NCBI GenBank assembly: GCA_014379595.1
Contig: JACMLM010000071.1
Coordinates: forward strand, 186,001 to 250,000
Direction of reading: 5' to 3'
DNA length: 64,000 nucleotides
DNA from: Anaerolineales bacterium
GTDB taxonomy: Bacteria; Chloroflexota; Anaerolineae; Anaerolineales; Villigracilaceae
The first letter of the stretch is position 1; every line of letters starts with the position of its first letter. Below, one piece after another: positions 26,218 to 59,342 of the stretch. Both the position numbers and the translations under genes were made by a program. The notes beneath the pieces are model-generated. The model saw nothing but the letters and a program-made list of their open reading frames with translations. It was not told the origin of the DNA and ran no database searches.

Positions 26218-26277
26218 GTAGGGGCGACCCGTCAGGGCTGTCAAAACCATCTATGAATCCTGGCGGGGCGCCCCTAC
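26218..26277. repeat. Palindromic repeat, family A copy 1
   Basis: Ends are GTAGGGGCGACCC and GGGCGCCCCTAC, an imperfect inverted pair about 60 bases long. Other copies are at 32270-32320 and 37442-37501. It lies between divergent genes, just upstream of a TATAAT at 26299-26304, and may have replaced the -35 region of the plus-strand gene. Confidence 0.75.
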
Positions 26278-26329
26278 GTGATAATGATAACCATCAAGTA
26301 TAATTGTTTCCCCTGAAAGGAAAACTGTC

Positions 26330-34733: not shown

Positions 34734-34824
34734 TGTCATTGCGAGCCGTTCTTTGGCGAAGCAATCTCCAACTTATTAGGAGATTGCTTCGTCGCAAAGG
34801 ACAAGAGCGCTCCTCGCAATGACA
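34734..34824. repeat. Palindromic repeat, family C copy 1
   Basis: Ends TGTCATTGCGAG and CTCGCAATGACA enclose a second inverted pair, GAAGCAATCTCC and GGAGATTGCTTC. Between trpS and trpGD. Related copies: 50145-50200 and, in frame inside a gene, 54579-54701. Confidence 0.85.
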
Positions 34825-37416: not shown

Positions 37417-37441
37417 AATGACTCCTTTATTTTTTGTTGAC

Positions 37442-37501
37442 GTAGGGGCGACCCGCCATGATTCATAATGGCTCTTGACGACCTTGGCGGGTCGCCCCTA
37501 C
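37442..37501. repeat. Palindromic repeat, family A copy 3
   Basis: GTAGGGGCGACCCGCCA at one end and TGGCGGGTCGCCCCTAC at the other, a 17-bp nearly perfect inverted pair. It lies between the T-box terminator and trpE, so any transcript that escapes the terminator carries this hairpin in the trpE leader. Confidence 0.85.
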
Positions 37502-50144: not shown

Positions 50145-50200
50145 CGCAATCTCCGCCACAGTGTTGGAGATTGCTTCGGGCTATCGCCCTCGCAATGACG
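50145..50200. repeat. Palindromic repeat, family C copy 2 (partial)
   Basis: GCGCAATCTCC ... GGAGATTGCTTC and a right end CTCGCAATGACG. The left outer end seen in the copy at 34734 is degraded. Between convergent genes. Confidence 0.65.
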
Positions 50201-52942: not shown

Positions 52943-55132
52943 TTAGAGAAGATTGAGATCAATGGTTGTGGAGTTAATTTTCAGACTTTGTAGCTCAAAT
53001 TCCAGTCTATCGTCTTCATAACCGAAGAATGTCCAAAACGTGACTTGAGGCTGATTCGCTTTGAGCATTACGGAGATAGCTGGCTCCTTGTGACCATAAT
53101 ACCGCGAGCGCCAGCCGCGAGTGGAGTCGGGGTCTGCGCGAACAATGGAGAAATTTCCATTGCCGTTTACCAATCCCATGTGAATTAAGATTTTGGAGTC
53201 GGACAGCTTGCTGTCCGTTGTTGGTGGCTTGAGCCACAAGCCATTTGCAGGAGCGAGCTCCTGCATTCCATATTCGTAATCACTTAATAACCAATGCAAA
53301 GCATAATGATGTGACTCTTTTGCAAGAAGATTATCAATAACAACCCAGCGGTCACCTTCAAGAGCTAGCACAGTTCGCTTGTGAGCTATAGGTTTGTAAC
53401 TATCATGTTCGCCTTGCCATAACTTTTCATTATTCTGAAGAACTCTTCCTTTTGACCAATCTGTCCATGTGAAACGGCTGACCATGGTCATTTGGTCTTT
53501 GTTATCTACAGTTACCGTATTATGTACATTCGTGTGAGCAAGTCCATTACGCCACACGCCTTCGCCGCTGTAAAGATATGTCCCTGCATCACAGGCAATG
53601 TTGTGACCCTGTATCCATAAGTCCACATGGAGTTGGTCAGCATGAGAGGGGCGAGATTGATAATCTGTACAGCGGATTACAGCTTTGCTATTTGTATTGC
53701 GTAAGATATACGCTCCCCCATTTGAAAAACTTTGATTGGTTTGTTTTGGAATATCTACTTCAATGTTTAAAGATTGTGAACCATAAAGCCAATATAGATC
53801 TTCGTCCCATACGCCAGATTCGAATATCTTTTTTCCTTTAGTCATGTAAGAACCCAACTGTAAAAGCGGACGATAATCAGTAAAGTCGCAGTTATTTAAC
53901 GACAATACTAATGCGCCATCATTTGAACCGTAAACAGGCATTTGTCCAGTTTGTGGGTCGATCAGTTGATACAGGTGGTCAATGGACTTAGTGACTACAC
54001 GCTTAACGGATTCTGAAAGTGGAGAGTTATTTAATTCTCCCAATCGCATTGCATAAAAATATATCTGCAAGATAAAGCGATGATAGTTAAGCGAATACAT
54101 GGAATAACTTCCGTCAGGGAAAATTTGTTTAACCGCTTCCTCTTCAAGTAGTTTGCGTCCCAATGAAAGATATTTTTCTGAGTCATTTAGTTCAGGGAAA
54201 AGGATTCCTACCAGCCACAGTCCGCAGGCTTCGCTGATGGTGTGATTGCTTTGGGTTGAGATGGCGTAGTCTATGTTTTGATAAATCCGCTGGGCTTGAG
54301 CGGCGACAAAAGTTGTGAATTGTGCAACTCGTTCAGGAGTTGTAGATGGAGAACTCAAAAATGCGTAGAAACCGAATGTCCAAGCAATGAGGCGGAGGGA
54401 GATTTCCTGTCCGTCCATCCAGTTGGAACCTGTGTTGGGATGGTTGTGTTCTGACCAATCGAGAATGGATATCCAGAATGCTTCGGCGTATTTTTCATCT
54501 TGTGAGGCAGCATAAGCACGGACAAGGGTATAGACAAAGCTAAAGCGATTGGGTTCCCAGGTGAATTTAATGTCAGTATGTCGTTGCGAGGAGGGTTCTT
54601 GTTCTTCCCGACGAAGCAACCCCCTATTATGAGGAGACTGCTTCGGCACACCTGCCCTGGCGGGCGGTGCCAGGGAAAACCAAGAGCGCCTCGCAGCGAC
54701 ATGATTGTCATCGGATATTTGAGACCAGTGTATGTTTGTAATCTTGCTCAAGCCGCCTGGAGCAGAATGCCAATGAGGAGGAAATCCAATCTTATGAAAT
54801 TGATGTGCGAAATATTTTATTTCACCAGACAAGATTTTCTCAGCTTCATCAATGACAGTTTGTTTATCCCAAGTAATATTATTTGGATAGATGGCTTTAT
54901 CAAAGAAAAATTTAGGCGAATTATTTTTTCGCCATTGTGCGTATGATTCGGGTGTTGATGGGATATCTTTTTTCAGCCATGTTTCAAGCGGACGATCCTC
55001 CCATTTGTATTGCGGCATTTGCAAGCGGATGAGTCCCGTGCGGAGGCGAAATGTATAAGCGAGGCGAAATGCTGACCAACGGAAACCAGCTTGTCGGTAG
55101 AGTGAAGCGAGTGTTCGGAATTTAGTCAACAT
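52943..55132 (-). CDS. Heparinase II/III-family protein with two repeat-derived insertions
   Basis: Polysaccharide-lyase-type protein of 729 residues: an N-terminal helical (alpha/alpha) domain with FTWEPNRFSFVYTLVRAY, DGQEISLRLIAW and SNHTISEACGLWLVG, then a beta-sandwich (from about 470) with HADQLHVDLWIQGHNIACDAGTYLYSG, the heparinase II/III signature that holds catalytic residues. The frame contains two palindromic repeats: residues about 144-185 (family C) and about 621-646 (family F), rich in Arg, Pro and Ser and foreign to the fold. The frame stays open through both. It begins the surface-polysaccharide cluster's 3' side. Substrate unknown. Confidence 0.85.
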   Translation of the reverse strand: MLTKFRTLASLYRQAGFRWSAFRLAYTFRLRTGLIRLQMPQYKWEDRPLETWLKKDIPSTPESYAQWRKNNSPKFFFDKAIYPNNITWDKQTVIDEAEKILSGEIKYFAHQFHKIGFPPHWHSAPGGLSKITNIHWSQISDDNHVAARRSWFSLAPPARAGVPKQSPHNRGLLRREEQEPSSQRHTDIKFTWEPNRFSFVYTLVRAYAASQDEKYAEAFWISILDWSEHNHPNTGSNWMDGQEISLRLIAWTFGFYAFLSSPSTTPERVAQFTTFVAAQAQRIYQNIDYAISTQSNHTISEACGLWLVGILFPELNDSEKYLSLGRKLLEEEAVKQIFPDGSYSMYSLNYHRFILQIYFYAMRLGELNNSPLSESVKRVVTKSIDHLYQLIDPQTGQMPVYGSNDGALVLSLNNCDFTDYRPLLQLGSYMTKGKKIFESGVWDEDLYWLYGSQSLNIEVDIPKQTNQSFSNGGAYILRNTNSKAVIRCTDYQSRPSHADQLHVDLWIQGHNIACDAGTYLYSGEGVWRNGLAHTNVHNTVTVDNKDQMTMVSRFTWTDWSKGRVLQNNEKLWQGEHDSYKPIAHKRTVLALEGDRWVVIDNLLAKESHHYALHWLLSDYEYGMQELAPANGLWLKPPTTDSKLSDSKILIHMGLVNGNGNFSIVRADPDSTRGWRSRYYGHKEPAISVMLKANQPQVTFWTFFGYEDDRLEFELQSLKINSTTIDLNLL
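53194..53270. repeat. Palindromic repeat, family F copy 2, inside a gene
   Basis: TGGAGTCGGACAGCTTGCTGTCC ... GCAGGAGCGAGCTCCTGC ... ATTCCA within the heparinase-like coding region. Related to 31572-31637. It encodes part of the C-terminal beta domain in frame. Confidence 0.75.
54579..54701. repeat. Palindromic repeat, family C copy 3, in-frame insertion
   Basis: Ends TGTCGTTGCGAGG and CCTCGCAGCGACA, with inner GAAGCAACCCCC and GGAGACTGCTTC. Length 123 bases, exactly 41 codons, inside the heparinase-like gene. It contains a nested 25-base element at 54653-54677 (TGCCCTGGCGGGCGGTGCCAGG...), which recurs at 59258-59282. Confidence 0.85.
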
Positions 55133-56269: not shown

Positions 56270-56349
56270 CTAAATGTTATTCAACTCTAACTCTATTCCC
56301 TCTGCAAAAGACATTGGACTAAACCCAAAATCCTTTTGTGCCTCGGTTA
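56270..56349 (-). pseudogene. 3' remnant of an epimerase gene
   Basis: Read on the minus strand this encodes an end very like that of the intact epimerase at 57105-57962: TEAQKDFGFSPMSFAEGIE here against AEAQKDFGFSPLSFEDGIS there, followed by a stop at 56270. The similarity begins at the very end of the Zn-ribbon gene, and no start or upstream coding part is present. It looks like the tail of a second epimerase left after rearrangement. Confidence 0.75.
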
Positions 56350-57104: not shown

Positions 57105-57962
57105 TCAAGCTTTGTATTCAATACTTATCCCATCCTCAAACGACAGCGGACTAAATCCAAAATCCTTTTGCGCCTCGGCATAAGAAAAATCCTTATTCTC
57201 GTTCAGCCGCAAGACCTGTTCAGCTTTGATAGGAAATCGAAGATGAATCCGCTCAAAGAAACTTAGCATATTTACAACTGGCTTGGATGGCAGATGAATT
57301 TTCCATACTCGCTTTTTCATTTGCGCCGCAATCGTATCAATGAGTTGGTTGTACGTGAGTGCATGCGCGCCTGCGATGTTATAGCTTTTGCGGATGGTAT
57401 TTTCAGAATCTAAACAGCTTATAACAGCTTGTGCAACATCATCTACATAGATCGGCTGTTGTAAATAATTCCCGTCACCGAAAACTGGAAAGAACGGCAA
57501 ATATTTCAGCCAGCGAATCAAGCGAGAAATATTGCGGTCACGGTCATTGCCGTAGATCATGGTTGGACGCAGGATTGTATATTTCAACCTGCTAGTTTCA
57601 ATCGCAAGTTCCGCCGCAACACGCACTTTCTTACTGTTTGCATTCAGCTGTGTAAAGATAGCCGTTGTGCTGATGAAGATCGCCCGTTCAACTCCAGCAA
57701 TTTTTGCAGCACTGATGATCGAGTCCGCGTGGCCGAAGCCGAGAGATGCAATGTTGACGAGAGCATCCGCTCCTTCTATAGCAGATGATAATGATTGCGA
57801 GTCAGAAAGATCACCTAATACCCATTCAATTCCAGGATGTGGGAGTAATGAACGGTCACTTGATGCGCGGTAGAGGCAACGGACTTCATATCCGCTTTTC
57901 AATAAAAGTGGAACAACTCGAGAACCTGTGAACCCCGTCGCGCCTGTGACGAAGACTTTCAC
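57105..57962 (-). CDS. NAD-dependent epimerase/dehydratase
   Basis: Extended short-chain dehydrogenase of 285 residues. Rossmann motif GATGFTGSRV, DLSDSQSL and the LRPTMIYGNDRDRNISRL segment. The usual YxxxK catalytic pair is not evident where expected, but SSTT-like STTAIF is present; activity is therefore uncertain. It likely modifies a nucleotide sugar in the polysaccharide cluster. It overlaps the glycosyltransferase upstream by 4 bases. Confidence 0.82.
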   Translation of the reverse strand: MKVFVTGATGFTGSRVVPLLLKSGYEVRCLYRASSDRSLLPHPGIEWVLGDLSDSQSLSSAIEGADALVNIASLGFGHADSIISAAKIAGVERAIFISTTAIFTQLNANSKKVRVAAELAIETSRLKYTILRPTMIYGNDRDRNISRLIRWLKYLPFFPVFGDGNYLQQPIYVDDVAQAVISCLDSENTIRKSYNIAGAHALTYNQLIDTIAAQMKKRVWKIHLPSKPVVNMLSFFERIHLRFPIKAEQVLRLNENKDFSYAEAQKDFGFSPLSFEDGISIEYKA

Positions 57963-59238: not shown

Positions 59239-59342
59239 ACCACAGAGACCACACACGTGCCCTGGCGGGCAGTGCCAGGGAAGAGCACGGAGATTCTTTA
59301 AAAGATTTTCTCAGTGAACTCAGTGATATCTGTGGTTATGGT
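59239..59342. repeat. Palindromic repeat, family E copy 2, with nested element
   Basis: Begins CACCACAGAGACC and ends GATATCTGTGGTTATGG; the inside has AAAGATTTTCTCAGTGAAC like the copy at 7011. Nested within is a 25-base element (59258-59282) identical in 24 positions to 54653-54677. Confidence 0.7.

Follow-up and report, generated by a model that had tools for sequence, protein, structure and literature searches.

A palindromic repeat occupies one coding site of a heparinase II/III-like gene in both orientations in an Anaerolineales bacterium and its relatives

Introduction

REPs are palindromic repeats that are classed by a terminal GTAG or CGTC (Di Nocera 2013, PMC3733652). The passages of that paper on CGTC-tagged REPs describe units of 20-40 nt with an 8-9 bp stem and a 4-5 nt loop. 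The C/TGTC tag at the end is unpaired, the stem begins with complementary AT, and the tail is mostly CCA. According to the same passages, REPs are mostly intergenic with some inside ORFs, no dedicated transposase is known for CGTC REPs, and the recB gene has different REPs at about the same site in two Xanthomonas. The CGTC class also includes palindromes of R. conorii, since CGTC-4 and CGTC-1 of this organism are RPE-4 and RPE-6 (PMC3733652, same passages).

Rickettsia palindromic elements (RPEs) are palindromic in-frame insertions in living genes that are absent from homologues. Among the table rows listed from PMC3767692, RPEs are 68-192 nt long and lie inside genes, many different genes are interrupted, and some orthologues have no RPE or one of a different group. 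Nearly half of RPE copies are inside genes, as stated in part of PMC10969869. The R. japonica paper (PMC3767692) reports different palindromes at the same coding site and, in the passages used here, leaves open whether such sites are hotspots or hold one diverged insert. Two further systems are comparable, each as described in parts of the sources cited. MITEs (PMC10969869; Coxiella QMITE, PMC5896051) are short, have terminal inverted repeats and can form in-frame fusions. PARCELs (PMC2996958) are tracts of repeats in protein-coding regions, and their palindromic coding sequence is thought to spread horizontally. Among the papers that literature searches listed, none dealt with repeats of this kind inside coding genes of Anaerolineae.

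The results presented here concern a palindromic element, family C, in a heparinase-like gene of an Anaerolineales bacterium. A first-pass annotation had recognized a single insertion. It had missed that the same site has been occupied repeatedly, in either orientation and in two genera, and that other loops of the gene hold other palindromes.

Results and discussion

The window, which is the whole 64,000-nt stretch that was analysed, is part of a 4.47 Mb draft genome (G000:C15:186001-250000). The host gene at 52943-55132 on the minus strand is an intact ORF of 729 aa that matches Pfam PF16889 and PF07940 (Hepar_II_III_N at residues 186-401 and Hepar_II_III_C at 467-694). The PDB relatives of the protein are the heparinase III proteins 4mmh, 4mmi, 5jmd, and 4fnv, and the alignment to 4mmh starts at residue 187, immediately after the insert. 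With both domains present, the gene belongs to the heparinase II/III-like proteins, and its activity is predicted. Among pairs of genus orthologues, dN/dS outside the inserts is 0.09-0.22 wherever dS is finite. The host gene is under purifying selection.

The family C element occupies 54578-54702 (125 nt, ATGTC...GACAT; no strand is assigned to it or to the other repeats below), with a GTC...GAC core at 54580-54700. It is in frame, corresponds to residues about 144-185, and sits just before the DIKFTWEPNR core of the protein. Compared with uninterrupted orthologues, the net gain is 168 - 45 = 123 nt, or 41 codons (54579-54701). The terminal inverted repeats match at 13 of 14 end positions. Folded as DNA, the element strand reaches -35.7 kcal/mol versus -19.1 (sd 2.9) for shuffled sequences (z -5.77), none of 200 shuffles folded as well, and the ends pair with each other in the predicted fold. 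A further hairpin is nested within the element at 54645-54682; it comprises a direct repeat, D2 (54647-54682), and a hairpin proper at 54645-54675, and has a second copy at 59252-59287. Some dispersed family C copies hold similar nested hairpins. An Rfam scan of the window returned no family at its threshold. The first-pass annotation had described an in-frame palindromic repeat of 123 bases, exactly 41 codons, that interrupts the gene before the DIKF core, and this description is borne out. Its reading of the repeat as an insertion is supported, as most orthologues are without the insert, and its assignment of the DNA to Chloroflexota was likewise correct. Neither outcome that it had named as fatal was encountered: homologues without the repeat do not have these residues, and there is no frameshift in the 729-aa frame.

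Family C is dispersed in the genome of the window. At least 57 BLAST matches to the element were obtained at E <= 1e-3, itself included and with some places counted on both strands owing to the palindrome; 40 of 87 candidates were scored. Copies were read from 34 stretches around BLAST matches and from the window, and pairing of left and right ends gave 36 rows. Removal of an over-long pair seen twice and of one duplicate left 33 distinct paired copies, with single-end matches uncounted. Most paired copies start with TGTC or CGTC and end with GACA or GACG; the copies are 83-159 nt and the cores 86-159 nt. Many copies have the form GTC-ATTGC...GCAAT, with GTC-GTTGC as a common variant, and in many GCAAT is followed by CTCC or similar, not CCA. 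AT flanks most copies, but AT is self-complementary. In 703 kb of the sister genomes G040 and G041, the family C motif was counted 16 times versus 2 in one random sequence.

The heparinase copy is the sole one of the 33 paired copies in the interior of a recognized gene, and the check for family C inside other genes, proposed in the first-pass annotation, returned no other among these paired copies. Four other paired copies (L084, L095, L101, and L103) lie in stop-to-stop frames with at least 30 codons on each side. These frames are 104-217 aa, and none of the four has a Pfam match. Several further copies overlap the ends of long frames, and a single-end match, L087, lies in a 146-aa frame. 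In other genomes, 16 long-frame candidates were chosen from the matches listed; most of these precede a start codon or fall in frames with no recognizable protein. None of the 16 is a family C copy inside a recognizable gene, as judged by eye with a family search for L393 alone.

Two other copies lie within the window, close to where the first-pass annotation had placed them. The copy at 34735-34823 is intergenic, as claimed, and lies just 5' of the start of a trpG-like gene (gene named by eye). The one at 50146-50199, between ORFs, proved to be a degenerate copy that retains only the right-end motif; it has no left end and is absent from the BLAST matches. A family C copy directly before a trpG-like start, again named by eye, is also present in G041:C1 at about 1490447-1490537 (L335), and the sister genome G040 has a different palindrome in this gap. 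The gap before the trpG-like gene is perhaps a second, intergenic site of recurrent family C occupation. The best reading is that family C is selfish DNA that is normally intergenic in this genome.

Filled and empty alleles of the heparinase site were compared in genomes that are mostly drafts. A search of 57 genomes of the genus found a homologue in 54, and 34 near-full-length orthologues were used; the others were 4 fragments and 16 distant homologues (36-42% identity). L022 is a duplicate of L043. The loop between HWSQISDD and DIKF is empty in 20 of the 34 and filled in 14, with the frame kept in the filled alleles. The empty loop is 9 nt in 19 of these orthologues; the twentieth, L029, does not fit the sequence pattern used to delimit the loop and was called empty from the alignment. 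A family-wide search of 152 genomes, with fragments and more distant homologues left out, added 16 orthologues of genus g6, of which five are filled at the same site (L396, L397, L399, L400, and L407), and six of genus g7, none of which is filled. Across the three genera, 19 of 56 orthologues are filled and 37 are empty. L398 was dropped from this set as an apparent duplicate of L023, with which it shares its insert and bit score.

On a tree of the 34 orthologues (655 columns, variable loops excluded), the distribution of filled and empty alleles needs 11 changes, at least seven of which are forced by well supported branches, and the AU test rejects a single filled clade (p 1.2e-58). Presence on the tree of all 56 orthologues takes 17 changes, of which 14 or more are forced; the mean for shuffled states is 16.0, and 426 of 500 shuffles are as low. 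The presence of the insert is random with respect to the gene tree. When the flanking AT is counted once, the loop in 17 of the 19 filled alleles is one codon shorter than all 37 empty ones, the exceptions being L009 and L011. This shared shortening fits a few founding alleles better than many independent insertions. As a separate observation, L398 (G092:C127) and L023 (G004:C49), from genomes assigned to two genera, seemingly carry the same heparinase gene and insert, which looks like draft contamination or a very recent transfer.

The filled alleles encode two types of peptide, VAARRSW... (type A) and VIARRAL... (type B). In all 48 A-B pairs the inserts align better when one is reverse complemented (mean identity 83.8% versus 77.6%). 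Types A and B are the same element in opposite orientation. Type A accounts for 8 and type B for 11 of the 19 filled alleles across two genera; in g6, L396 and L397 are type A and the other three type B. Owing to the palindromic ends, the host reading frame runs into either type through a GTC codon. The right flanks are not sorted by orientation (p 0.08). For example, across 60 nt of right flank L014 (A) matches L019 (B) at 98% of positions, but on the left the identity is only 77%.

Synonymous divergence was compared in 36 pairs covering 13 of the 14 genus inserts, with L013 left out. Insert dS is 0.04-0.32, flank dS ranges from 0.56 to saturated, and the insert value is lower in all 36 pairs. 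The inserts are younger than the surrounding genes, although their low dS could come in part from palindrome constraint or from conversion by dispersed copies. Insert dN/dS has a mean of about 0.46 for the 15 A pairs. For the 21 B pairs the mean is 1.28, a value raised by nested hairpins in L021 and L027. Judged from these ratios, the inserted peptide appears to be weakly constrained or not constrained, though with a value of about 0.46 the A peptide is not clearly unconstrained. In each of the 14 genus inserts at the site, the core is 1 mod 3 in length and free of stops. Among 53 dispersed copies, 24 have such a core length, and only 10 (read as B) or 8 (read as A) also lack stops in the host frame. 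The host enzyme is under selection, which filters the inserts that stay.

The origin of individual inserts was approached through local divergence in 24 comparisons, with up to 15 codons from the site counted as near. Between L014 and its sister L031, 26% of positions differ near the insert and 6.0% elsewhere (p 8.9e-9), and in this near region L014 has less divergence from other A-type species (13-17%). For L010 and its sister L043 the values are 19% near and 21% elsewhere, which is nothing unusual. From L018, a B-type allele of another clade, L010 diverges at 8% of positions near the insert versus 30% in the rest of the gene (p 6.6e-7); for L010 against L016, L021, and L023 the values are 11-14% and 30-33%, a weaker signal than with L018. 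Of five filled/empty sister pairs, only L014-L031 has an excess of differences at the site, and no excess was seen in L010-L043, L013-L017, L027-L026, or L018-L030. These differences show for L014, and indicate for L010, that the insert is part of a short tract with a history unlike that of the remaining gene. Other inserts resemble dispersed copies more than they resemble their counterparts at the site. The L009 insert, which has a nested hairpin, shares 96.5% identity with a dispersed copy in G008, as compared with 92.6% for the best insert at the site. The L013 insert is 83% identical to dispersed copies in the window's genome versus 75.5% to the best insert at the site; it has no close source, since the top match within the genome that carries it reaches 77%. 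L009 and L013 look like separate arrivals. The recombination and separate-arrival claims each concern two species.

The orthologue alignment has other length-variable places, near residue 80 (site 1) and at residues 118-135 (site 2), 370, 459, and 621-646. These loops hold other palindromes in different species. Examples at site 1 are GTAGGGGC... and GGTGGTCGAGTAG...GTATCGAGACCACC; site 2 has a GTCATYCTGAGC...CTCAGAATGAC repeat (D-type), and the loop at residue 459 has GGGAGAGGGG-type hairpins. Residue 370 is occupied by family C again in L040, L041, and L042, with CGTC ends and in another reading frame. The D-type repeat is dispersed in the genus, with at least 37 matches in at least 18 of 57 genomes, and four of the matches listed are in the heparinase gene. 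In the same 703 kb of G040 and G041 and one random sequence, GTAGGGGC was counted 7 versus 1 times, GGTCTCGATACG 9 versus 1, and GGTGGTCGAGTAG 8 versus 0. No enrichment was seen in these genomes for the remaining motifs of site 1, site 2, and family F (0-2 versus 0-2). Two D-type repeats were also seen in other frames. One is an in-frame palindrome inside the Aminotran_4 match of a Chorismate_bind/Aminotran_4 protein of G023 (L137:238-2031), and the other, L393, lies in a frame rich in Lys and Pro that has no Pfam match.

Family F, which the first-pass annotation had placed in the gene at 53194-53270, is a cluster of short hairpins at 53201-53264 (hairpins 53201-53216 and 53247-53264). It falls in the second length-variable loop, residues about 621-646. 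Nine other places in the genome match it, but over 24-29 nt only. The comparison of this loop with homologues, which the annotation had proposed, was carried out, and the loop varies in length among orthologues.

RAYT mobilisation of family C was considered and found unsupported. The window's genome has eight Y1 transposase genes, and seven have no paired family C copy within 1.5 kb on either side. The eighth has a single copy about 60 nt past its stop, and none of the eight is flanked by family C on both sides within this distance. The eighth gene (L076, G000:C15, 253-1917) is a 555-aa frame with a Y1 transposase domain and a long N-terminal part that is receiver-like by eye; its family C copy is at 1978-2075. 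Turnover was followed between G040 and G041, which share blocks mostly 95-98% identical over about 340 kb. Four family C copies are common in place and three places differ. One copy is absent in G040, where the empty site fits a deletion between ATTG repeats; this is the one clean filled/empty pair, and the deletion fits it equally well as an insertion in G041. At the second place, G040 has another palindrome in the corresponding intergenic gap, and the third difference is the heparinase copy.

We regard it as probable that family C is selfish DNA tolerated at a permissive loop of the heparinase gene, where it arrives repeatedly and is partly moved between species by recombination. The loop between HWSQISDD and DIKF would tolerate a gain of 3n nt without a stop. 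The present distribution may reflect a mixture of a few founding arrivals, spread partly by recombination, occasional new arrivals, and change of orientation. More than one arrival at the loop is suggested by the L009 and L013 inserts. Filled alleles would then spread between species by homologous recombination, their orientation may change via the palindromic ends or by exchange with dispersed copies, and inserts may be lost by deletion. The 41 residues are presumably translated as a passively carried loop, predicted to be exposed.

Other explanations account for part of these data. The view that the gene is decaying, with the repeat marking a pseudogene, or that the insert is an assembly artefact can hardly be right. 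Many relatives are fragmented drafts, and the heparinase matches in G024 and G001 have one stop each close to the protein's end. However, the frames are open across nearly the entire query in 34 genus orthologues, and this, with the low flank dN/dS, rules out a dead host gene; an artefact is made unlikely by the insert's presence in G041, a genome in a single contig, and by its recurrence across 19 of the 56 orthologues. One ancient insertion with vertical inheritance and many later exact losses would explain why the filled alleles have the same junction and why 17 of 19 share the one-codon shortening, and a loss-like event is seen elsewhere in the apparent ATTG deletion between G041 and G040. 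It is nevertheless highly improbable, given the opposite orientations, the at least 14 forced changes on the 56-row tree, an insert dS lower than that of the flanks in every one of 36 pairs, and the L009 insert, whose closest match is a dispersed copy and not another occupant of the site. A single vertical insertion as such is ruled out by the changes on both trees and by insert dS. It is also very unlikely that the element is a functional switching cassette, in which the palindrome flips in place between two alternative loops that are kept as useful variation. The two orientations open in the same entry frame, the near-identical L014 and L019 right flanks around an inverted element, the nearby glycosyltransferase genes, and the A-insert dN/dS of about 0.46 would agree with such a role; the B-insert ratio of about 1.3, the 37 of 56 orthologues without insert, and the other palindromes in other loops of the gene would not.

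A true target-specific hotspot, at which a transposase inserts family C at the exact nucleotide repeatedly, in either orientation, and without interspecies recombination, would account for both orientations at one junction, the separate-looking L009 and L013 inserts, the absence of a foreign tract in four of five filled/empty sister pairs, and family C at the second site in L040, L041, and L042. We consider it unlikely in view of the foreign tract in L014 and the affinity of L010 to another clade. The 98% identical right flanks of L014 and L019 despite the inverted element and the shortening shared by 17 of 19 alleles also argue against it, as do the different ends and reading frame at residue 370 and the lack of a transposase link among the Y1 genes of the window's genome. 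It is likewise rather doubtful that the element at this coding position is gained time after time, inverted in situ, and transferred between species together with its flanks, which would make the enzyme loop an exchangeable and invertible module. In that case the palindromic ends would serve as a recombination substrate, and the element would be a natural invertible cassette without a dedicated recombinase.

Tolerated selfish DNA, the reading favored here, invites comparison with the described systems. The first-pass annotation had called the repeat RPE-like but unrelated in sequence. Its behaviour is indeed RPE-like, as an in-frame gain that is absent from most orthologues. That the sequence is unrelated is doubtful, because the [C/T]GTC-ATTGC...GCAAT ends partly match those published for the CGTC class, to which RPE-4 and RPE-6 belong. 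Like CGTC-tagged REPs in the passages cited, family C has a C/TGTC end, complementary AT at the beginning of the stem, and a mostly intergenic distribution; in contrast to them, it is longer, contains nested hairpins in some copies, and has tags that pair with each other. Family C is CGTC-like and, with its longer units and paired ends, is not filed as a member of the CGTC-tagged REPs. A pattern scan for CGTCATTGCGAG...GCAATCTC returned at least 119 stretches, some of which are expected by chance. The 80 matches listed come from Anaerolineales, Bacteroidetes, Omnitrophota, Sphingopyxis, and others, and include one in a Rickettsiales MAG, a single match that can be chance.

The large share of copies inside genes that is typical of RPEs is not seen in family C (1 of 33). 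RPEs interrupt many genes, whereas one gene dominates here and 32 of 33 paired copies are outside recognized gene interiors. Compared with the RPE passages cited, the heparinase site adds both orientations at one junction and probable exchange between species. The resemblance to MITEs, as these are described in the parts of the sources cited, includes neither a demonstrated target duplication nor a demonstrated parental transposon. Family C is a single insertion in an enzyme loop, unlike the tracts of PARCELs. The 56 filled and empty orthologues, the two orientations, the datable inserts, and the close sisters make the question of hotspot versus divergence, left open for R. japonica, testable, and favor recurrent arrival with some recombination. 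The same tolerance of coding palindromes occurs in Chloroflexota, where this enzyme offers a natural series of loop insertions.

Two further repeats were noted in the window. A 53-nt direct repeat (56294-56346 and 57126-57178, 83% identical), whose second copy overlaps the end of an epimerase-like gene, is possibly the leftover of a duplicated gene end. An inverted repeat pair of 62 nt (26218-26279 and 37440-37501) is 82% complementary, with its arms 11 kb apart.
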